From Candidatus Abyssobacteria bacterium SURF_5 (lineage in GTDB: Bacteria; Abyssobacteria; SURF-5), in NCBI GenBank assembly GCA_003598085.1, contig QZKU01000136.1, positions 1 to 24,618 of the forward strand: DNA of 24,618 bases, written 5' to 3'. Made by a program: the position numbers and the translations under genes. The stretch's first letter is position 1. Each line of letters opens with the position of its first letter. The notes under the pieces were generated by a model. The model was not told where the DNA came from, ran no database searches, and saw only the letters and a program-made list of their open reading frames with translations. Shown piece by piece: positions 3,130 through 16,918 of this stretch.

Positions 3130-4230
3130 ATGCAAGAGACCGACCGCGAAGAATCATCCCTCCTCTGTGATCTTCCCTCCAGCGTCTCGCTACAGGTAAC
3201 CGAAGTCTGCAACTTGCGCTGCAGGATGTGTTATGAGTGGGGAGAAAAGGGACGCTATGGAAAGGCGAGCGGCAAGAAACCCGCTACGCTCGATATTGAT
3301 TTGTTGAGACGGGTCATCCGCGAACTGGCGCCGGCAAGGCCGTCGTATGACCTGTTCGGAGGCGAGCCATTTGTCTATCCTCATCTTGAGGATTTGATCC
3401 TGGCGATCAAGCAAGCGGGCTCGCCGATAGATACGCCGACAAACGGCACTCTCCTGGAAAAGCATGCCGTGATGCTGGTGCGCACCGGCTTCGATTCAGT
3501 GCGCGTTTCACTTGACGGCCCTCGAGAAATCAACGATGCCCAGCGGGGCCCCGGCAGTTACGAGAAAGCCATGAGCGGCATTGCGGCGCTTTACCGCGAA
3601 AAGCAGAAGTCGGGCGGCCGCACTCCGCTTATCAGCATCATTTATACAATTACAGCGGACAACTATCTTGCGCTCGATCAATTCTTTCTGCGCGAGCTGA
3701 ACCTGGAGGCGATCGATTGGGCAACGATCCAGATGCAGAACTTTATCACGGCTCCGATGGGAGCCGCATATGCGCGAATGCTCGATTCGCAGTTCGGCAT
3801 AAAAAGCAATCGTTACTGGAGCGGGCTCGTGCGCTCCCCCGCCGATTTCTCGAATATCGATGCAATCAAACTTGCGGACCAGGTGAATAGAGTGTGCGAC
3901 TCCCTTCAGGAGATGGGGAAAAATGTGCTGCTATTGCCGCCTACATTTTCACCGGAAAATCTTTCCGCCTATCTCGGTGCTCATTGGAACAAGATGACCG
4001 ACACCTATCGTCGCTGTCCGATTCCGTGGAACGTCATAGATATCACGGCCGACGGCGATGTGGCGCCATGCCATGTGTTCTATGACCTCGTGATGGGGAA
4101 TCTGCATGAGCGGAGTTTTGAGGACATCTGGAACGGCGAGAGATACCGCTCGTTCAGGGGATATATGGAGAGACACGGGCTCATGTCGATCTGTCCCGGC
4201 TGCTGTATTCTTTACCTGGCAGGCAGTTAG
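3130..4230 (+). CDS. Radical SAM/SPASM-type protein
   Basis: The 366-residue product carries the radical SAM cluster motif C27-x3-C31-x2-C34 (CNLRCRMC), followed by a DLFGGEPFVYP segment that fits the SAM-binding GGEP motif. The C-terminal part has cysteines in RRCPIPWNV, DVAPCHVF and ICPGCC with the ADGDVAPC and GNLHERSFEDIW pattern of SPASM/twitch domains, which bind auxiliary Fe-S clusters. The C-terminus ends soon after CPGCC, so the auxiliary site may be reduced. Such proteins modify peptides, act as sulfatase-maturing enzymes, or handle small molecules. No precursor peptide is evident next to it. It is probably co-transcribed with the M20 peptidase 54 bases upstream. Function is open. 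Confidence 0.85.
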   Translation: MQETDREESSLLCDLPSSVSLQVTEVCNLRCRMCYEWGEKGRYGKASGKKPATLDIDLLRRVIRELAPARPSYDLFGGEPFVYPHLEDLILAIKQAGSPIDTPTNGTLLEKHAVMLVRTGFDSVRVSLDGPREINDAQRGPGSYEKAMSGIAALYREKQKSGGRTPLISIIYTITADNYLALDQFFLRELNLEAIDWATIQMQNFITAPMGAAYARMLDSQFGIKSNRYWSGLVRSPADFSNIDAIKLADQVNRVCDSLQEMGKNVLLLPPTFSPENLSAYLGAHWNKMTDTYRRCPIPWNVIDITADGDVAPCHVFYDLVMGNLHERSFEDIWNGERYRSFRGYMERHGLMSICPGCCILYLAGS

Positions 4231-8637: not shown

Positions 8638-9186
8638 TTAGCTGATCAACTGGTGCGCCTTCAGGCGCCGCACGACGGCAGGAACCATTGCGGAACCGAC
8701 CCCGCCAAAAATAGTGGTGAGAATAGATGAGTAGATTGCGTGCTGCAGCATAATGGTCTTTTCCATGCCCAGCAGCCAGTCCACCAGCAAAAAGAAAAAG
8801 AACCGGGTTGCGGAGGCGATGCAACCGAGGAGAACAGATGCAGCAAGGCTTTCGGCGAGGCGCGGACACAAAGTAAACCCCACATCGACAATGACGGCGG
8901 GGAAAACGGACTTGGATATCACCAGCGGTCCGCCCTTGCCCATCCCAAGCAGCATACTGAGCGTACCGGCCACAACCCCCATCAGCGTGGCCGCCCACCG
9001 ATACGGAACGCACGCACGTCCGAGAATAAGGAAGAACATAGTGAAGAACATGGCGTGACCGGGGATGTTCAGGTGCAGCCGCAGCATGGCTCGTGTGATT
9101 ATGATGAAGGTTGCGCAGAAACCCAGGTAAATTGCATCGCGCAGGGGAAGAAACTGGAATGTGTGAATGCGATTGGAAGTCTTCAT
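8638..9186 (-). CDS. Putative ECF transporter S component (substrate-binding membrane protein)
   Basis: This is a hydrophobic protein of 182 residues with about six membrane segments and a lysine/arginine-rich end, the size and shape of ECF S components. I recognise no known vitamin-specific signature (no BioY, ThiT, RibU or CbiM motifs). The assignment rests on size, topology and being the last gene of an operon that has an ECF ATPase and EcfT but no other S component. I use the ATG at 9186, which overlaps the stop of the upstream gene as ATGA and points to translational coupling. An in-frame start at 9228 would lie inside that upstream gene and add a charged tail. Substrate unknown. Confidence 0.6.
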   Translation of the reverse strand: MKTSNRIHTFQFLPLRDAIYLGFCATFIIITRAMLRLHLNIPGHAMFFTMFFLILGRACVPYRWAATLMGVVAGTLSMLLGMGKGGPLVISKSVFPAVIVDVGFTLCPRLAESLAASVLLGCIASATRFFFFLLVDWLLGMEKTIMLQHAIYSSILTTIFGGVGSAMVPAVVRRLKAHQLIS

Positions 9187-9917
9187 TTCTTCTTCTTGTC
9201 TTTCTTCTTGCCCCCTATCGGGCGCCACATGCCGTCGCTCGTTCGGTCGACGAACAGGATGATCTCATGATTCTGCAACACTGGCCGAACCCAGTCGCGC
9301 GTGTCGATGATGTCATCATCCCGAAGCGATGTTCCCGAGGCGGCGGCGACCTTCTGGATTCCCGTCCTTGAGAGCAGTTCCTTCACATTCATAATACCGC
9401 TGATCTCTCGAATTCCCTCGAGCCCGATGAAACGGCCGTCGCATCCCGTGCTTCGCAGGCCGACGCCCCCCATCGCGCCGATAGCGCCTCGCCACGGCTC
9501 TCCCCGGCACCACGTGAAAATCTCGAGGCGCTCAGCCAGCAGTCGCGCCTCATCCGGCTGAATGACTTCGCGCTGGGCGCGCAGGCCGAAATCAACCAGT
9601 TCCCTTGGAACCTCTTCCTCATTGGCAATACATAAACCCGGATCGGCTCCTTCATGAAAATTGCGGTCCAGGAAATCGACTGCATAATTGATAGTCATTC
9701 GCAGGTTGACTCCTGCCGCCTGTCGCGCTCCGACACAGGCGCAACTGTTGTGCGACGTGTACGGGATATCCGGATGCACGAGAAATTGGTGTCTCGTAAC
9801 GCTGGGCGCCTGGAGGAGCTTCTCCTTCACGAGCTCGTCGGCCAGCATCCGCGCCAGTCTTCCCGTACCGATACTTTCCTCATTATCGGTGTCGTCAATC
9901 GCAATAAGAACATTCAT
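9183..9917 (-). CDS. Stand-alone TiaS-like kinase-domain protein
   Basis: This 244-residue protein resembles the N-terminal kinase-type domain (TCKD) of archaeal TiaS, the enzyme that makes agmatidine on tRNA-Ile. Matching points in order are IAIDDTD (5-11), followed by GTGRLARMLADEL; HPDIPYTSHN (48-57); DPGLCIA (92-98), like the NPG motif of TiaS; and RGAIGAMGGVGL (143-154), like the GxIGALAAIG motif. It appears to lack the C-terminal OB-fold and zinc-ribbon parts that hold the tRNA, and it ends in a run of lysines. It starts behind AAAGGAGT, overlaps the end of ecfT by 23 bases, and its stop overlaps the start of the S component. A role tied to the imported compound is inference. The similarity was judged by eye. 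Confidence 0.55.
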   Translation of the reverse strand: MNVLIAIDDTDNEESIGTGRLARMLADELVKEKLLQAPSVTRHQFLVHPDIPYTSHNSCACVGARQAAGVNLRMTINYAVDFLDRNFHEGADPGLCIANEEEVPRELVDFGLRAQREVIQPDEARLLAERLEIFTWCRGEPWRGAIGAMGGVGLRSTGCDGRFIGLEGIREISGIMNVKELLSRTGIQKVAAASGTSLRDDDIIDTRDWVRPVLQNHEIILFVDRTSDGMWRPIGGKKKDKKKK

Positions 9918-10677
9918 TGTTGACTCCTTTGCATCTCATCGCCGGATGGCGCGGGACAGTCTGAACAGCCTGGCCGGGCGGGGTGACGAACAGATATTGT
10001 TGATGAAAAGATGGATCGGCGCCGGAACGCATCCCACGCGCCTCGGCCGACAGGGCGGCCTCGTCGGCTGTTCTGAGCGCCCGCACTATTAAAGGAATGA
10101 ACAGGCAGTCGGCGGCGTATTTCCAGTTCCGGGGGTTCAGCATCTTCCGCGGCGAAAGCGGCGCTCCTCGCAGGCGTTGCGCCATCGCGATCTCTTGGAA
10201 CTCGCGAAAAAAGACCGGAATGAACCGGAAACTACACAGAACGACAAACGAGAAACGGGGCGACAAAAACCGTCGCAGCGACCTGATAAGCTGCAGGCTG
10301 TTGGTGGTCCTCAGAAAGATGGCGCCGGGCATGAAAAACAGGAAAATCTGCATGCTCACTCGCAGACCAGGGTAGAGACCTTCGGCGCCGAATCGTAAAA
10401 AATACAGGATAACCACGATAACCGCCTGCACTAGGAAAAAGCGGATATCGCGCCAGAGGTCGACCAGCTTCATGCGCGAGAGGAGGTACAGCGAAAAATT
10501 CAGCACCAGAAGGACGCTGAGTGTCCATGGCTCACGCGCCGCGAAAGCCGCCATGCTGAACAGCGTCATGAACACAAATTTGAAAGCCGGGTTCACGCGA
10601 TGCAGCGGGGACAGAGCATGCCGGTATTCAAACGCGCTTCCCGGCAGCGCGGTCGAGAGAAAACGTTCAACCTTCAC
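9895..10677 (-). CDS. ecfT: ECF transporter transmembrane component EcfT
   Basis: The 260-residue protein has several hydrophobic segments and the two short coupling motifs of EcfT that touch the ATPases: AQRLRG at 166-171 and AEARG at 211-215, both of the Ala-x-x-Arg-Gly type. The family scaffold couples ATP hydrolysis to toppling of the S component in the inner membrane. The start overlaps the end of the ATPase gene by 11 bases. The C-terminus runs past the usual end (a Cys-containing tail) and overlaps the next gene by 23 bases. Confidence 0.85.
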   Translation of the reverse strand: MKVERFLSTALPGSAFEYRHALSPLHRVNPAFKFVFMTLFSMAAFAAREPWTLSVLLVLNFSLYLLSRMKLVDLWRDIRFFLVQAVIVVILYFLRFGAEGLYPGLRVSMQIFLFFMPGAIFLRTTNSLQLIRSLRRFLSPRFSFVVLCSFRFIPVFFREFQEIAMAQRLRGAPLSPRKMLNPRNWKYAADCLFIPLIVRALRTADEAALSAEARGMRSGADPSFHQQYLFVTPPGQAVQTVPRHPAMRCKGVNNECSYCD

Positions 10678-12055
10678 TTATCTTTCCGTTTTTTAAAATG
10701 ATGTGTCTATTCACCCACTCGCCTGCCGGCAGCGGCCCATGCGAGGCGAGGATTATGGTCGTTCCGTTTCTTTGAAGCCTGCTCAGGATTGTAAGCATCC
10801 GGCGCCTCTGCGGAAAATCGAGCCCGGCGAACGGCTCGTCGAGCAAGAGGACTTCGGGATTTGCGGCGATAACTGAGGCCAGAGCGACCCGATGCTGCTC
10901 TCCGTAGCTCAGAGTAAAAGGAGATCGTTCGGCGAACCGCTCGACCTCGCAGAGGGCAAGCGCTCCGTTTACTCTCGGCATCACCTCCCGTTCTCCATAC
11001 TTCAGCATACGCAGGGTAAAAGCCGCCTCGGAAAAGACCGAATCCTCGAATAATTGCTTTTGCGGGTTCTGAAACAGAAGCCCTACATTTCCCACAAGCT
11101 GTTCGGGTTTCGGCGCGGTGATTCCCGCGGTGCGAATGCTTCCCGCCTGAGGAGATTCCAATCCAACCATCAGCCTCAGCAGGGAGGACTTGCCCGCCCC
11201 GTTTTCGCCATACAGATAGACGAACTCTCCGCGCCCAATCCGCAGGCTGAGGCAATCGAGCACTACTTTCCCGTTCGGCTCGGTCCAGACAATGCCGTCC
11301 ATCTCGAGCGCCGGCTCGGCGGAGGACGCTGGTTTGGAGGAATCGGCGCCGCCCGGCCCGGGCGCATAAGAACCCGATCCGTGGAAGAACCCAAACGAAC
11401 GTTCCCGAAGACAACCCTTTTCAAGTTGGAAGAGTCTGTCTACGACCCCATGGAACACGCCGGGCTCGTGGTCGGCTATCAGCAGAGCGTGCCCCTGCCG
11501 TTTCAGCTCATGTATGATTTGAACGAGGTCCGCCTTGCCCTGTTCGTCCAACTGACTCGTCGGCTCGTCGAGCAGAACTACGGCAGGTCGTGAAGACAGG
11601 ACAGCGGCGAGAGCGACCCGTTGTTTTTCGCCCGCGGACAGGCGGTCAACGTTTCTCTTTTCAAAACCGGCCAATCCCACGGATTGAAGCGCATGATGCG
11701 CCTGGGCGGCCGTTTCTTCTCCAGTGAATCCAATGGCGTCGGGACCAAACGCAGCCTCCTCTTCCACCGTAGAACAGAGGATCTGCGAATCGACGTTCTG
11801 AAAGAGCAGTCCGACCGGTTTTTTCCATCCGTTTGCATCAATCGTGATCCGCCCGTTGCAGTGACCGCCTTTGAGCAGCCCCTGGATCGCAAGCAGGAGC
11901 GTGCTTTTGCCGGCGCCCGATGAGCCGGTTATACAGACGCATTCGCCCCTGTTGACGGTAAACGAAAGAGAACGGAGGATGGCCTCTCCATTGCCCGGAT
12001 AGCTGTAGGAGAAATCTTCAACCTTCAAAGCCCAAGCCATCCCCCGGTTCCCCAT
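10667..12055 (-). CDS. ecfA: Fused double ECF ATPase (EcfA-EcfA')
   Basis: One 462-residue chain contains two ABC ATPase domains. The first has Walker A GSSGAGKST (44-52), Q-loop LLFQN, signature LSAGEKQ (139-145), Walker B VVLLDEP and H-loop IADHE. The second has Walker A GENGAGKSS (283-291), signature LSYGEQH (382-388), Walker B VLLLDEP and H-loop LASHG. A glycine/serine-rich linker joins them at about 226-248. All catalytic motifs look intact in both halves. It powers the ECF transporter encoded next to it. The start lies 3 bases after the TonB receptor's stop; a second ATG at 12040 behind a G-rich stretch is possible. Fused EcfA pairs are known but less common than separate subunits. Confidence 0.9.
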   Translation of the reverse strand: MGNRGMAWALKVEDFSYSYPGNGEAILRSLSFTVNRGECVCITGSSGAGKSTLLLAIQGLLKGGHCNGRITIDANGWKKPVGLLFQNVDSQILCSTVEEEAAFGPDAIGFTGEETAAQAHHALQSVGLAGFEKRNVDRLSAGEKQRVALAAVLSSRPAVVLLDEPTSQLDEQGKADLVQIIHELKRQGHALLIADHEPGVFHGVVDRLFQLEKGCLRERSFGFFHGSGSYAPGPGGADSSKPASSAEPALEMDGIVWTEPNGKVVLDCLSLRIGRGEFVYLYGENGAGKSSLLRLMVGLESPQAGSIRTAGITAPKPEQLVGNVGLLFQNPQKQLFEDSVFSEAAFTLRMLKYGEREVMPRVNGALALCEVERFAERSPFTLSYGEQHRVALASVIAANPEVLLLDEPFAGLDFPQRRRMLTILSRLQRNGTTIILASHGPLPAGEWVNRHIILKNGKISEG

Positions 12056-12058
12056 GAA

Positions 12059-14062
12059 TCAGAATACGAGCCTGCCGCCGGCATAGATAAACCTGCCGGG
12101 CCGTGGCAACGCGTAACTTTCTTCATATTCCTCGTCGAAAAGGTTCTCGACGCCGACGTACACGCGAAGGAGATTGTCAAGAAACGCCTGCTCAAGTTTT
12201 GCATTCACCACAGTGTAGTCGTCGAAATCGTCTTTTACAAGAGGTTCCGTCCTGGAATAGACGACCTGGTCGGCGACGCGCAGGATGCTTAGATATGCGC
12301 TCAGACCGAAATCGAAATAGTATCTGGTTTCGAGCGCGAGCTTATGCTCCGGACGGTACTGCAATTCATCCCGCTCCGAGCCCGGCGATTTGTCTTGCGA
12401 GTCGAGGTACGTATAGCTGAGCTTCACAAGCAGATTTTCAATCGTCCGATTCTCGGCGGCCACTTCGAAACCGGCGAACTCGTATTCGTCATTATTCGTG
12501 AAGATGTCGTCGGGCGGGATTTTCTCGATATAATCCTCGACGTCGAGATAGAACGCCGTGAAGCTGGCCCATGTGTTCCAAGGGAGCGCCTGCTCAATGC
12601 CGGCCTCGTAGTTGATCGATTCTTCCGTTGTCAGGTCGATGTTGCCCTCGCCGACGCCGTACAATTGACGAATCGAGGGGAAGCGTACTTGTTTGGAGAC
12701 GGAGCCTTTGAGGCGAGTGTTCGTGGGAAAATCGTAATATGAGCCGATGAGCCAGGCGCCGGCGTCATCGTCTTCGCCCTCCTCTTTGTCCAGCCAGTTG
12801 TGGTTGTATCCGAGGACCACAGCCCATTGTTCGATGGGAAACACCTCATACTCGAGGGCGACGGAATAGACGTCAAGCTCGCGGTCGTCATCGAAAGGCA
12901 CCGGCGTATCCACGCCGCCAACGCGCTCAATTTCGAAGCCGTCTGTCTCGAATTCTTCGGTCCGGGCGTTCAGCGCGAGGGTTATCTGGCCGGCCCGCCC
13001 GAGATCGTATCTGGGCTGGACGGCGACGCCGCTGACAAAGGTCTCTTCGTTTGCGTGAAAATTGCCGCGCCGAGTGATGGTATCATAGTGATCGTCATCG
13101 TAGCGGTTGGTTTCCTGATCGAGTTGGTTGAAGAAGGCCCAGGAGCGGACATCGAGCGGGCCCGGAGCATTGTACCGCACGGCGAACTGGCCGGAAATTC
13201 CTTCAAAATCATCGACACGTTCAAATCTTGCCCGGTTCGCGAATATGTCGGCGGGGTCATCAATGACGCTCGGGGGCTTCCCAAATTCTCCCTGAAGGTA
13301 ATTCAAGGTTACGCCGAACTCCCACTCATCATTCGGAGCGTACACGAAATTGCCAAAGAAATTGTCACGCTCGAAGTCGCTGTTCTCGCGAAAATCGCCG
13401 TCCTCGACCGGGGTATCATCGAAATCATCGGATAGCGGGAAGGCATGCCTATCGAATATGCTTCCGCTCAAAAAGAAACTCCATTTCTCCTGCCCGCCCA
13501 GCACGTTAAAGCGCTCGAGGTAATGGTCTCCCTCACCGGCCTCGGCCGACACCATTCCGTGGATGCCTTCCGTTCCCTTCCTGGTGATGATGTTGATGAC
13601 GCCCGCCAAGCCGCCGTCGCCGTACAGGATGGAATGATTGCTGTAGCTGACCTTGATCTCGGCGATGTTTTCCACCGGAATGAGCGACGGATCAAATTGG
13701 CCGTCATTGGTAGAGTTGATAGGGATTCCATTCAGCAGCAGGGTGACGTGCCGCGAACGCAGGCCGCGGATGTCGACGCGCGGAGTCCCTTCGGCTCCAA
13801 CTCGGATCACGATGCCCGGCAACAGTTCCAGCGCCTCTGAAAGCGTGCGTGCACCCTTGTTTCGAATTTCTTCGGCTGTCACCCGTCGTACCGTTGTCAC
13901 ACCTTCCACGCCTTCCCGCTCGCCGGTAACCACTATCTCGCCGAGGGTATACATATCGAAATATTCACCTGGAGCGACGTAATCCGTCTCCTGCGAATAA
14001 GCTGAAAGGTGAAATAAGAACAGAATGAAAAGGCTGAAGATACCGATGTTGCGCCTGCCCAT
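12059..14062 (-). CDS. TonB-dependent outer-membrane receptor
   Basis: The protein has a signal peptide (IGIFSLFILFLFHLSAYS), a TonB-box-like segment near GEIVVTGERE, a plug domain (VTAEEIRNKGARTLSEAL through GVINIITRKG) and a long barrel ending in phenylalanine (AGGRLVF), as usual for outer-membrane proteins. It would take up a scarce or large ligand using TonB energy. I set the start at ATG 14062 because AGGAGG lies 9 bases upstream; the longer frame from 14110 has no ribosome site. This gives 667 residues. It is the first gene of the ECF operon, followed 3 bases later by the ATPase. The ligand cannot be told from the sequence. Confidence 0.9.
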   Translation of the reverse strand: MGRRNIGIFSLFILFLFHLSAYSQETDYVAPGEYFDMYTLGEIVVTGEREGVEGVTTVRRVTAEEIRNKGARTLSEALELLPGIVIRVGAEGTPRVDIRGLRSRHVTLLLNGIPINSTNDGQFDPSLIPVENIAEIKVSYSNHSILYGDGGLAGVINIITRKGTEGIHGMVSAEAGEGDHYLERFNVLGGQEKWSFFLSGSIFDRHAFPLSDDFDDTPVEDGDFRENSDFERDNFFGNFVYAPNDEWEFGVTLNYLQGEFGKPPSVIDDPADIFANRARFERVDDFEGISGQFAVRYNAPGPLDVRSWAFFNQLDQETNRYDDDHYDTITRRGNFHANEETFVSGVAVQPRYDLGRAGQITLALNARTEEFETDGFEIERVGGVDTPVPFDDDRELDVYSVALEYEVFPIEQWAVVLGYNHNWLDKEEGEDDDAGAWLIGSYYDFPTNTRLKGSVSKQVRFPSIRQLYGVGEGNIDLTTEESINYEAGIEQALPWNTWASFTAFYLDVEDYIEKIPPDDIFTNNDEYEFAGFEVAAENRTIENLLVKLSYTYLDSQDKSPGSERDELQYRPEHKLALETRYYFDFGLSAYLSILRVADQVVYSRTEPLVKDDFDDYTVVNAKLEQAFLDNLLRVYVGVENLFDEEYEESYALPRPGRFIYAGGRLVF

Positions 14063-14140
14063 CTCGCCGTGCCTCCTCTGGATCCGCCACTGGTTCAGAT
14101 GTACATTCATGGAATGGAATTCTGGTTATTTCTGCGTCGC

Positions 14141-14570: not shown

Positions 14571-15509
14571 TCAGCTTTTGGAGGCGCTGTCTGCCACTTC
14601 CTGCGGAAAGACCATTTTGCCGCACAACGAGAGATCGTAGCCCTCGAAATCAGCGGCTGATTCCCGGAATTGAGGCTCGTGCAGGAGTCCGATGAAGAGT
14701 TGGATGCCCTCCTCAAAGAAGCGTTCTTTCAGGATGATCAGGTCGAAGCGTTCCCAGCCCCAGGAGATGAAGTCGAGTCCGAGGAGGCCGGCGACCGCGC
14801 GGATGCATGGTCCGGCATCGGCCCTGCCGGCGAGGATTTCGAGACCAACGTCGAGATGGCGCCCTACCTCATTCTCATATCCTTGAATGTGGTTACTTTG
14901 AGCCAAGTGTTCCTGCAGCTTCTTATCAAAGAGCAGGCGCGTTCCGGTGCCCAAGGGGCGATTCACGATGCGAACGTTCGGGCGCAACAGATCGGATACG
15001 GTGCTGATAGACTTTGGATTCCCCTTTTGCAGCAGGAGACCCTGTTCGCGGCGGCAGAAATTTACGACGGCTGGAAGTTGTCCGAGTTCTACGTTGGCAA
15101 AGCGGAAGTTGTACTCGTTCTCGTTTTCCTCCTGCAAATGACTTGAGGCAATATGGCAAAGTCCCCGCCGCAGCGCCCTGATGCCGCCGAGACTGCCCAG
15201 ATTACCGAAGACGGCCACGTGATCGGGGTACAGGCGATTGAAGAGCGAAAGGGCGCGGTCAAGCAAGATATCATTGCTCCCGCTGACGATGAGAAGCCCC
15301 TGGTAGGGCGGCGCCGGATGCGCCGATTTCGGGTAGTTGATGGTCTGGTTCTCGAGCCATTGCTCGACAAGCCGCTTCGGGAACAGCCATTTCCCGGTCG
15401 CCTTCGTCGCCGGGAGCCCCTTCTCGGAGATCAGGCTGTAGACCATCTTCTCGTTTATATCCAGAAGCTTGGCGACTTCGTGCGTATTCAAGAAAGCTTT
15501 TTCTTCCAT
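14571..15509 (-). CDS. One-component regulator: excisionase-type HTH plus PBP-like ligand domain
   Basis: The first about 55 residues form an excisionase/MerR-type helix-turn-helix (LNTHEVAKLLDINEKMVYSL, then KWLFPKRLVEQWL). The rest resembles the periplasmic-binding-like domain fused to such HTHs (PBP_like, PF12727), with GSLGGIRALRRGLCHIASSH, RPLGTGTR and GRADAGPCIRAVA. Proteins of this type are thought to sense small ligands, with molybdate- or tungstate-like oxyanions as frequent guesses. I start at ATG 15509 behind GGAGGG; the track's longer frame from 15617 has no support. This gives 312 residues. It points toward the TonB receptor operon and is divergent from the AbrB-like gene, so either could be its target. 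Confidence 0.78.
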   Translation of the reverse strand: MEEKAFLNTHEVAKLLDINEKMVYSLISEKGLPATKATGKWLFPKRLVEQWLENQTINYPKSAHPAPPYQGLLIVSGSNDILLDRALSLFNRLYPDHVAVFGNLGSLGGIRALRRGLCHIASSHLQEENENEYNFRFANVELGQLPAVVNFCRREQGLLLQKGNPKSISTVSDLLRPNVRIVNRPLGTGTRLLFDKKLQEHLAQSNHIQGYENEVGRHLDVGLEILAGRADAGPCIRAVAGLLGLDFISWGWERFDLIILKERFFEEGIQLFIGLLHEPQFRESAADFEGYDLSLCGKMVFPQEVADSASKS

Positions 15510-15526
15510 CGCGCCCTCCGTAGTGG

Positions 15527-15556
15527 ATTTAATCATTTTCACCGGCGCGATGTCAA
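15527..15556 (-). promoter_or_regulatory. Probable promoter of the HTH-PBP regulator
   Basis: On the minus strand a perfect TTGACA (15551-15556) is followed after 18 bases by TTAAAT (15527-15532). The start codon at 15509 is then only about 10-12 bases past the expected transcription start. It lies about 75 bases from the divergent promoter at 15631-15659. Confidence 0.4.
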
Positions 15557-15630
15557 GGCGACGGCCGGTCGGAGAATTTCGCTTCGTGATCGAGGGGAGC
15601 CGGTTTTTTTCGGGCACCCACTGTTTTTGC

Positions 15631-15713: not shown

Positions 15714-16016
15714 ATGAGAAAAAAGAGGAAGAAGTCACAGGGGGATACCGGGTTGGAACGAGCGTCGGGTCCGGCTCCGTGCTGCCGGATCGAGGCGCTG
15801 GTGTCGCTCGATGCGCGCGGGCAGGTGCTGCTCCCGAAAGAAGTCAGAGAGAAGGCCGGGCTGCAGACAGGCGACAAGCTCGCGGTCGTTCTCTGCGAGG
15901 CAGATGACACGGTAGCCCGGATCACGCTCATCAAGGCGGAGGCGTTCGCCCAGACCGCCCGCGAGATGCTCGGCCCGATGATGGGCATGATCGAAGACAC
16001 GAACCGATCCAAATGA
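15714..16016 (+). CDS. AbrB/SpoVT-type protein resembling HgcC (HgcAB-associated)
   Basis: The 100-residue protein contains an AbrB/MazE-type swapped-hairpin domain (VSLDARGQVLLPKEVREKAG, then GDKLAVV) after a lysine-rich N-terminus. The CCRIEALVS segment and the C-terminal LGPMMG resemble the small HgcAB-associated AbrB-like family (HgcC) as I recall it. No hgcA or hgcB mercury-methylation gene is present in this window. Likely a DNA-binding regulator or a small partner protein. Its stop overlaps the nitroreductase start in an ATGA arrangement, indicating one transcript. Confidence 0.72.
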   Translation: MRKKRKKSQGDTGLERASGPAPCCRIEALVSLDARGQVLLPKEVREKAGLQTGDKLAVVLCEADDTVARITLIKAEAFAQTAREMLGPMMGMIEDTNRSK

Positions 16017-16918
16017 CAGTTGACGCACAAATAAAAGGGGGGTTATCCAAGATGAGTTGGGTTTCAATTGACAAAGAAAAGTGCACCGAATGCGGCATCT
16101 GCGCGGTGAGGTGTCCGCTCTGTTTTGTCCAGCAGAACGGCGCGACGGTCGCATTTGCAAGCGAAAACAATTGCAGCCTCTGCGGCCACTGCGTGGCATT
16201 ATGCCCCGGCGAAGCGATCGTACATAGAAAAATGAACATGTCGAATTTCCCTGAGGGCGGCGGCGCGACATTCGAGACGGAGACCTTCATCCGCTTCATT
16301 CGCGAGCGGAGGAGCCACCGCCATTTCAAAGACAAAGCAATTCCGGGGGGCGTGCTCGAACAGTTGGTTGATGTCTGCCGGTATGCGCCGACGGGCGGCA
16401 ATGAGCAAACGGTCGAGGTCATTGTCGTGCTGGACCCGAAACGGCGCCAAACTCTTTCCGACCTGACGGTTGATTTTTTCATTGAGATGGGTGGCGCCGC
16501 GGAGAAGATACTGGAAGATCCATCGTCTGAAGCCGGCGAAACGATGATAGCTCCGGAATCTCTGCAGATACTCGCACATTACAAGAATCGCCTGTCCATG
16601 GCCCGCGCGGCGGGGTATGATCCGATTCTTTACAAGGCGCCCGCGGTTTTCATTTTTCATTCGCCCACGTATACCCGCACCCCGAAGGATAATTGCGTCA
16701 TCGCATCGACTACCATGGCTTTGACTGCGAGGACCATGGGGCTCGAATCGACGTATATCGGACTGCTCGAAATGGCCTCGAAAGCATACCAGCCGCTGGC
16801 GGAGGAATTGAAGCTGCCGCCGAGGCATGAGGTATATAGCGTCGTGATCATGGGGTATCCGAGGCTGAAATTCCTGAAAGCAGTCGACAGAAAATCCTTG
16901 AAAGTGAGATGGGAATAG
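16013..16918 (+). CDS. Nitroreductase with N-terminal 2x[4Fe-4S] ferredoxin domain
   Basis: Two cluster motifs are complete: C24-x2-C27-x2-C30-x3-C34 followed by P, and C54-x2-C57-x2-C60-x3-C64 followed by P. A nitroreductase-type FMN domain follows (RERRSHRHFKD at about 98, RYAPTGGNEQ at about 124, MGYPRLKF near the end). Such fusions pass electrons from the ferredoxin part to FMN to reduce nitro or quinone-like compounds in anaerobes. The ATG at 16013 overlaps the previous stop; a second ATG at 16052, behind a G-rich stretch, would trim 13 residues and keep both clusters. Physiological substrate unknown. Confidence 0.88.
   Translation: MTVDAQIKGGLSKMSWVSIDKEKCTECGICAVRCPLCFVQQNGATVAFASENNCSLCGHCVALCPGEAIVHRKMNMSNFPEGGGATFETETFIRFIRERRSHRHFKDKAIPGGVLEQLVDVCRYAPTGGNEQTVEVIVVLDPKRRQTLSDLTVDFFIEMGGAAEKILEDPSSEAGETMIAPESLQILAHYKNRLSMARAAGYDPILYKAPAVFIFHSPTYTRTPKDNCVIASTTMALTARTMGLESTYIGLLEMASKAYQPLAEELKLPPRHEVYSVVIMGYPRLKFLKAVDRKSLKVRWE

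Follow-up and report, generated by a model that had tools for sequence, protein, structure and literature searches.

A TiaS-type kinase-domain protein encoded in an ECF transporter operon and its probable place in tungsten assimilation

The 244-aa protein encoded at 9183-9917 of the window (the whole 24,618-nt stretch of DNA analysed here) belongs to a branch of its own within the TCKD superfamily, and this branch probably has its role in tungsten assimilation. The fold of the protein is of the kinase type, and the catalytic positions are conserved. The branch is monophyletic and is linked in the genomes to tungsten/Moco genes and to Moco/Tuco riboswitches of the P3-less type; the theme common to its members is tungsten/molybdenum-cofactor metabolism and not ECF transport as such. 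In the open-access literature (most subscription journals lay outside the scope of the search) no paper was found that ties TCKD or TiaS-like proteins to ECF transporters or to tungsten.

Operon organization

The operon is encoded on the minus strand, in the order regulator, receptor, double ATPase, EcfT, TCKD protein, membrane protein:

14571-15617, minus strand: candidate regulator, HTH_17 and PBP_like domains (PF12727, E=2e-60)
12059-14110, minus strand: TonB-dependent outer-membrane receptor of 683 aa, separated from EcfA downstream by 3 nt
10667-12055, minus strand: EcfA, 462 aa, two fused ATPase domains (ABC_tran matched twice)
9895-10677, minus strand: EcfT transmembrane component, CbiQ family (PF02361, E=9e-19)
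9183-9917, minus strand: TCKD-family protein, 244 aa, TiaS-type kinase domain (residues 1 to ~155) with a C-terminal extension of ~90 aa
8638-9186, minus strand: predicted ECF S component of 182 aa, modelled with six long helices and a short C-terminal one

The open reading frame claimed in an earlier note on this DNA is exact in its coordinates, and so is the description of the gene as locked between ecfT and the S-component gene by overlaps. The first 23 nt of the TCKD gene (start at 9917) are shared with the end of the EcfT gene (stop at 9895), and the TGA of the TCKD gene shares 4 nt with the ATG of the S component, as ATGA (9186-9183). The longest reading frame for the S component would begin at GTG 9228; it is the ATG at 9186 that overlaps the TCKD stop. 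EcfA overlaps EcfT by 11 nt. From this arrangement of reading frames, the TCKD gene appears translationally coupled to the ECF transporter.

The model of the S component (pLDDT 91.4) has ECF S components as all of its best 17 structure matches (top 5edl, Z 16.1), with FolT among the structural neighbours, and no curated family is matched above the cut-off. The EcfA matches to the ECF_ATPase models (E=7e-92 and 6e-87) are both below the curated cut-offs, as are the best curated matches of the receptor, which are generic siderophore and B12 receptor models. The operon resembles ECF transporters of the CbiMNQO or vitamin type in that a single unit of overlapping genes encodes EcfA, EcfT and a protein predicted to have the S-component fold. 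It differs from them in the kinase-type gene placed between T and S, in the TonB receptor, and in an S component outside the curated families.

The candidate regulator is encoded on the same strand as the receptor, 460 nt upstream of it, and has homologues near TCKD genes in two other loci (L019 and L042). Some MoeA-type proteins carry the PBP_like domain as well, at their C-terminus. Neither a Moco/Tuco aptamer (RF01055) nor a degenerate copy of it was found in the window, nor did a cobalamin riboswitch turn up at the operon.

Three other genes in the window, all on the plus strand, were noted. An HgcC-like protein (15714-16016; NCBIfam NF040962, 91 bits, cut-off 70) overlaps by 4 nt a ferredoxin-nitroreductase gene (16013-16918), relatives of which occur near TCKD genes in L060 and L092. 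A radical SAM/SPASM protein (3130-4230) has the tungsten-cofactor oxidoreductase maturase model TIGR04317 as its best curated match (E=2e-29, below the cut-off).

Domain and fold of the TCKD protein

All four motifs claimed for the protein are present: IDDTD (residues 7-11), HPDIPYT (48-54), DPG (92-94) and GAIGAMGG (144-151). The assignment to the TiaS-type kinase domain stands as well, since the profile search and the overlay on TiaS, both proposed in the earlier note, agree. As a single sequence, the protein matches Pfam TiaS_TCKD over residues 5-62 (E=1e-5, 26 bits, curated cut-off 27); the same model matches 49 of 83 family members at E≤0.01, with a best value of 1.8e-9. The NCBIfam TiaS model aligns, again with the single sequence, to residues 1-154 only (E=2.7e-11), and the alignment ends at model position 152 of 422. 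The methanogenesis marker 11 model (TIGR03280, NCBIfam) covers the same residues 1-154 (2.3e-9) and matches all 83 tested family members. The profile built from 83 relatives finds the solved TiaS chains at E values of about 1e-14 to 6e-14.

The AlphaFold2 model, built from 81 sequences (mean pLDDT 94.4), superposes on TiaS 4rvz with Z 22.1 and an rmsd of 1.8 Å over 151 residues; the best unrelated chain has Z 7.6. A likeness to the pterin pyrophosphokinase HPPK (Z about 6.9) is weak, inside the range of unrelated folds, and was set aside.

D8, D9, T10, D11 and T18 are invariant in all 81 aligned members, as are R42, H43, Q44, T54, N57, G144, G147, L154, G161 and R162. T18 reportedly corresponds, from work of Terasaka et al. 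in 2011, to the residue that TiaS autophosphorylates. This conservation suggests that the protein is catalytically active; its location is presumably cytosolic.

The tRNA-binding C-terminal parts are indeed missing, as had been claimed: the protein stops at 244 aa, the ferredoxin-like, OB and zinc-ribbon domains of TiaS have no match in it, and no second Pfam domain was found in the 83 family members. The C-terminal ~90 aa are without an identified relative.

Family and phylogeny

At least 295 relatives were found in a scan with one genome per species, of which 80 loci were retained. These include Deltaproteobacteria, Bacteroidota, Bacillota, Planctomycetota, Acidobacteriota, Chloroflexota, Myxococcota, Riflebacteria, Poribacteria and Methanomicrobiales, and further copies are found on haloarchaeal megaplasmids, adjoining a BtuCDF-type transporter. 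The scans found no viral relatives, and no second copy in the window's genome.

In a tree of 44 sequences a split with support 95/90 sets the TCKD branch off from TiaS, from methanogenesis marker 11 and from the HTH-TCKD proteins. TiaS forms a long branch (support 100/100), and the group of the window protein is separate from this archaeal TiaS. Compared with TiaS (tRNA-Ile2 2-agmatinylcytidine synthetase; PDB 4rvz, 3amt, 3amu, 5xob, 3u02), the fold is the same over residues 1 to ~155, with the IDDTD and Thr18 positions and the DPG/NPG and GxIGA motifs in common. Unlike TiaS, the TCKD branch has its own RHQ and TSxNS motifs and a unique C-terminal ~90 aa with the invariant G161-R162, is both bacterial and archaeal, and occurs in a tungsten context. 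In methanogenesis marker 11 the kinase-type domain is the C-terminal half, and the N-terminal domain of that protein is missing in the TCKD protein.

Among the methanogens, three proteins with an N-terminal HTH and a C-terminal TCKD (L141 715-1887, L142 1112-2239, L143 929-2077) may represent a class of regulators. Their genes adjoin homoserine dehydrogenase in two of the three genomes, and no Mo/W genes were seen beside them. The gene for marker 11 adjoins a radical-SAM marker-10-like gene and has formylmethanofuran dehydrogenase genes no more than about 10 kb away, a context that allows no conclusion on a tungsten link of the wider TCKD superfamily. In a Methanoculleus, two adjacent overlapping TCKD genes (L140 958-2046 and 1976-2923) encode marker 11 and a divergent paralogue.

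Transporter neighbourhoods

A survey of neighbourhoods had been set beforehand as a test of co-location with ecfT/ecfA. The ECF-specific part was weakened, with EcfT in just 11 of 85 loci, and ECF co-location was rejected as the unifying theme; an S component is present in 48 of the 85 loci, in most of which its gene lies directly before or after the TCKD gene. Other relatives are accompanied by BtuFCD-type, Tup or Wtp transporters or by the molybdenum-storage protein.

Two loci stand out in their arrangement. A Syntrophomonas contig carries three tandem TCKD-family genes (L088, 6184 onward) behind a riboswitch-led BtuFCD-type operon. A Pimelobacter 'plasmid' (L008, NZ_CP097987.1, 3820 bp) holds three genes, namely a TCKD gene, one for a divergent membrane protein of the S-like kind and a further ORF; no replication gene is listed, and it is possibly a misassembled chromosomal piece.

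Tungsten and molybdenum gene context

Clustering of the neighbourhoods places TupA, TupB, WtpABC, ModE-like proteins, AOR, MoaA/C/E, MoeA, MOSC, FdhD and XdhC near TCKD genes. The molybdenum storage protein (MoSto) is also found beside them (PDB match E=1.8e-78), a MOT1-type molybdate permease is encoded nearby in L093, and in L045 the TCKD gene abuts WtpA (E=2e-100).

For comparison, 36 stretches of 20 kb from carrier genomes served as controls. The density of Mo/W genes is 73 per Mb near TCKD and 10 per Mb in the controls, a contrast that is post hoc, as genes already noticed beside TCKD supplied the category profiles. At least one Mo/W gene is present in 21 of 45 long loci and in 3 of 36 controls (p=1.8e-4). 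No listed Mo/W gene is nearby in 48-49 of the 85 loci, which is partly due to short contigs and to the dominance of Bacteroidales.

The association extends to whole genomes. Genes of the AOR family, which are tungsten oxidoreductases, are present in 35 of 42 carrier genomes (thus absent from 7) and in 48 of 140 non-carriers of a broad sample (p=1.6e-8). In a one-phylum sample of 392 genomes, the TCKD gene is present in 7, and all 7 have AOR (65 of 392 overall); these carriers represent about three independent lineages, as five are from one family. Eight AOR-family genes are present in the genome of the window.

Two kinds of small protein, about 75-85 aa long (clusters c11 and c12, e.g. L018 4351-4608 and L033 10760-11005), recur beside TCKD and molybdenum-storage genes. 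They are without a Pfam match, and those of c12 have a CxxCxxRRW...C pattern and may bind metal. Another recurring type is a shrunken molybdopterin-oxidoreductase-like exported lipoprotein upstream of TCKD (L069 9392-9997, L066 2095-2646, L041 1854-2327, L024 9408-9995, L019 9507-9992), perhaps ligand-binding; that of L069 matches PF00174 with E=2e-4.

Moco/Tuco riboswitches

Rfam scans located the RF01055 aptamer in 16 of 47 loci, and in 13 loci the TCKD gene or its apparent operon lies downstream of such a riboswitch. In L018, L072, L076, L077 and L089 the distance from the aptamer to the TCKD start downstream of it is 74-104 nt. In L066 and L069 the aptamer precedes a lipoprotein-TCKD-S unit, and in L020, L026, L058 and L088 a BtuFCD-type operon with TCKD as the last gene. 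The aptamer is rare overall (38 matches in 145 genomes), and a riboswitch model made from the TCKD-linked aptamers found none in the 36 control stretches (720 kb).

In L054, from the same family as the window's organism, two aptamers precede TupA, upstream of TonB-ECF-TCKD-S genes; given the 455-nt gap between TupA and the receptor gene, co-transcription is presumed. The window's closest tree neighbour, G043 (with four genomes only in its one-phylum sample), has an aptamer at L177 15479-15600 that precedes the same-strand genes TonB-EcfA-EcfT-TCKD-S, whose order is that of the window; here co-transcription is likewise presumptive, across one 460-nt gap inside the apparent unit.

The aligned TCKD-linked aptamers, among those examined, are without the P3 hairpin, whereas a distant copy in L057 has it. 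The window's genome contains one P3-less aptamer, ahead of tupABC, moaC, MOSC and mogA. As described by Regulski et al. (2008, PMC2408646), P3-less copies are nearly confined to tungsten-cofactor organisms and operons, and the type is assigned to the tungsten cofactor; those of Syntrophomonas precede 'sulphite oxidase' genes. Relatives of the window operon are led by this same P3-less variant. The passages of that paper on the content of the regulon list molybdate/tungstate transporters, Moco genes and unassigned genes, and name no TCKD protein or TonB/ECF system.

Proposed role and alternative explanations

For the window operon itself, a link to tungsten is suggested by its relatives, by the host genome and by the type of regulator, and tungsten is presumably the cargo metal rather than molybdenum. 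The TonB receptor would bring a tungsten-containing cargo (oxyanion, chelate or cofactor-like pterin compound) across the outer membrane, and the ECF module (S component, EcfT and double EcfA) would carry it across the inner membrane. In the cytosol, the co-translated TCKD enzyme may then perform an ATP-using phosphoryl transfer that converts tungsten, a ligand or a pterin acceptor into a form fit for cofactor assembly or storage.

Several chemical steps are compatible with this scheme. Activation of tungsten or of a pterin for insertion or storage is possible. To the same degree, the enzyme may modify a tungsten ligand or a cofactor fragment that has been imported, with its release or trapping; neither step reaches an even chance. 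The trapping or modification of an imported compound is one of several options. The TCKD gene is kept while the transporter varies (TonB/ECF, BtuFCD-type, Tup, Wtp), so that an intracellular step on tungsten or the cofactor is at least as likely as trapping, and a cargo restricted to a single importer is less favoured. A non-catalytic or sensing role is rather unlikely, and equally so a step other than these. The more specific proposal, that the branch performs a tungsten-specific ATP-dependent step (e.g. earmarking over molybdenum) and that the TonB/ECF system represents a tungsten importer of a new type, is put forward tentatively.

Several other explanations were considered. The protein might act as a sensor or gatekeeper, with ATP and tungstate bound in the phosphoryl-transfer site, and so control uptake or insertion without turning over a substrate. 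Tungstate is a phosphate analogue, the protein is co-translated with transporter subunits, and the fusions to HTH in methanogens indicate that the TCKD domain can be used in regulation. We regard this role as unlikely: the invariance of the core catalytic positions and Thr18 across the 81 members fits catalysis better, a DNA-binding domain is absent in the TCKD branch, and regulation is already provided by the riboswitches or the HTH-PBP protein.

Somewhat more doubtful is the salvage of a dephosphorylated tungsto-/molybdopterin or another pterin fragment, imported and then trapped through phosphorylation by the TCKD protein. TonB and ECF S components usually bring in vitamin-like compounds, FolT is a structural neighbour of the S component, and cofactor-uptake genes are often under cofactor riboswitches; exported lipoproteins of the PF00174 fold also lie directly upstream in L069 and near TCKD in methanogens (E=6e-14). 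Carriers, however, often have moaA/moaC/moeA, in some cases in the same locus, and so make the pterin themselves. The TCKD gene also accompanies plain tungstate importers (Wtp, Tup) that have no TonB/ECF system, and the cofactor is described as unstable (PMC2408646).

It is improbable that the cargo is unrelated to tungsten, i.e. a cobalamin-, heme- or siderophore-like compound that is imported and trapped by the kinase, with the tungsten link of the relatives being inapplicable here. The generic siderophore/B12 matches of the receptor, the CbiQ-like EcfT and the lack of a riboswitch in the window would fit such a cargo. Against it, G043 has the same gene order downstream of a P3-less Moco/Tuco riboswitch, the same-family genome G001 has TupA and two P3-less riboswitches ahead of the operon, no cobalamin riboswitch was found, and the upstream regulator has a MoeA-type PBP domain.

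Finally, a true bacterial TiaS that modifies tRNA shares the kinase domain with this protein, but it is rejected as highly improbable, because all tRNA-binding domains are absent, the branch is separate, the host encodes TilS (above the cut-off) and so does not need TiaS function, and in three methanogens a protein of the TCKD branch coexists with marker 11 and a full-length TiaS (E 1e-103 to 1e-116). The suggestion in the earlier note of a function other than tRNA modification is thereby borne out.

Significance

The uptake and trafficking of tungsten and its discrimination from molybdenum form a poorly understood field. The tungsten context, which the earlier note did not include, shifts the question from a trapped import compound to an ATP-dependent step needed in tungsten assimilation. 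If the proposal is true, tungsten biology would gain one enzyme and one type of transporter, and a second biological role would be added for a kinase domain whose single known use is in an archaeal tRNA enzyme. The family is widespread, its cultivable carriers include Geomonas, Neobacillus, Syntrophomonas and Methanocalculus, and the riboswitch and operon context yields clear testable predictions in these organisms.
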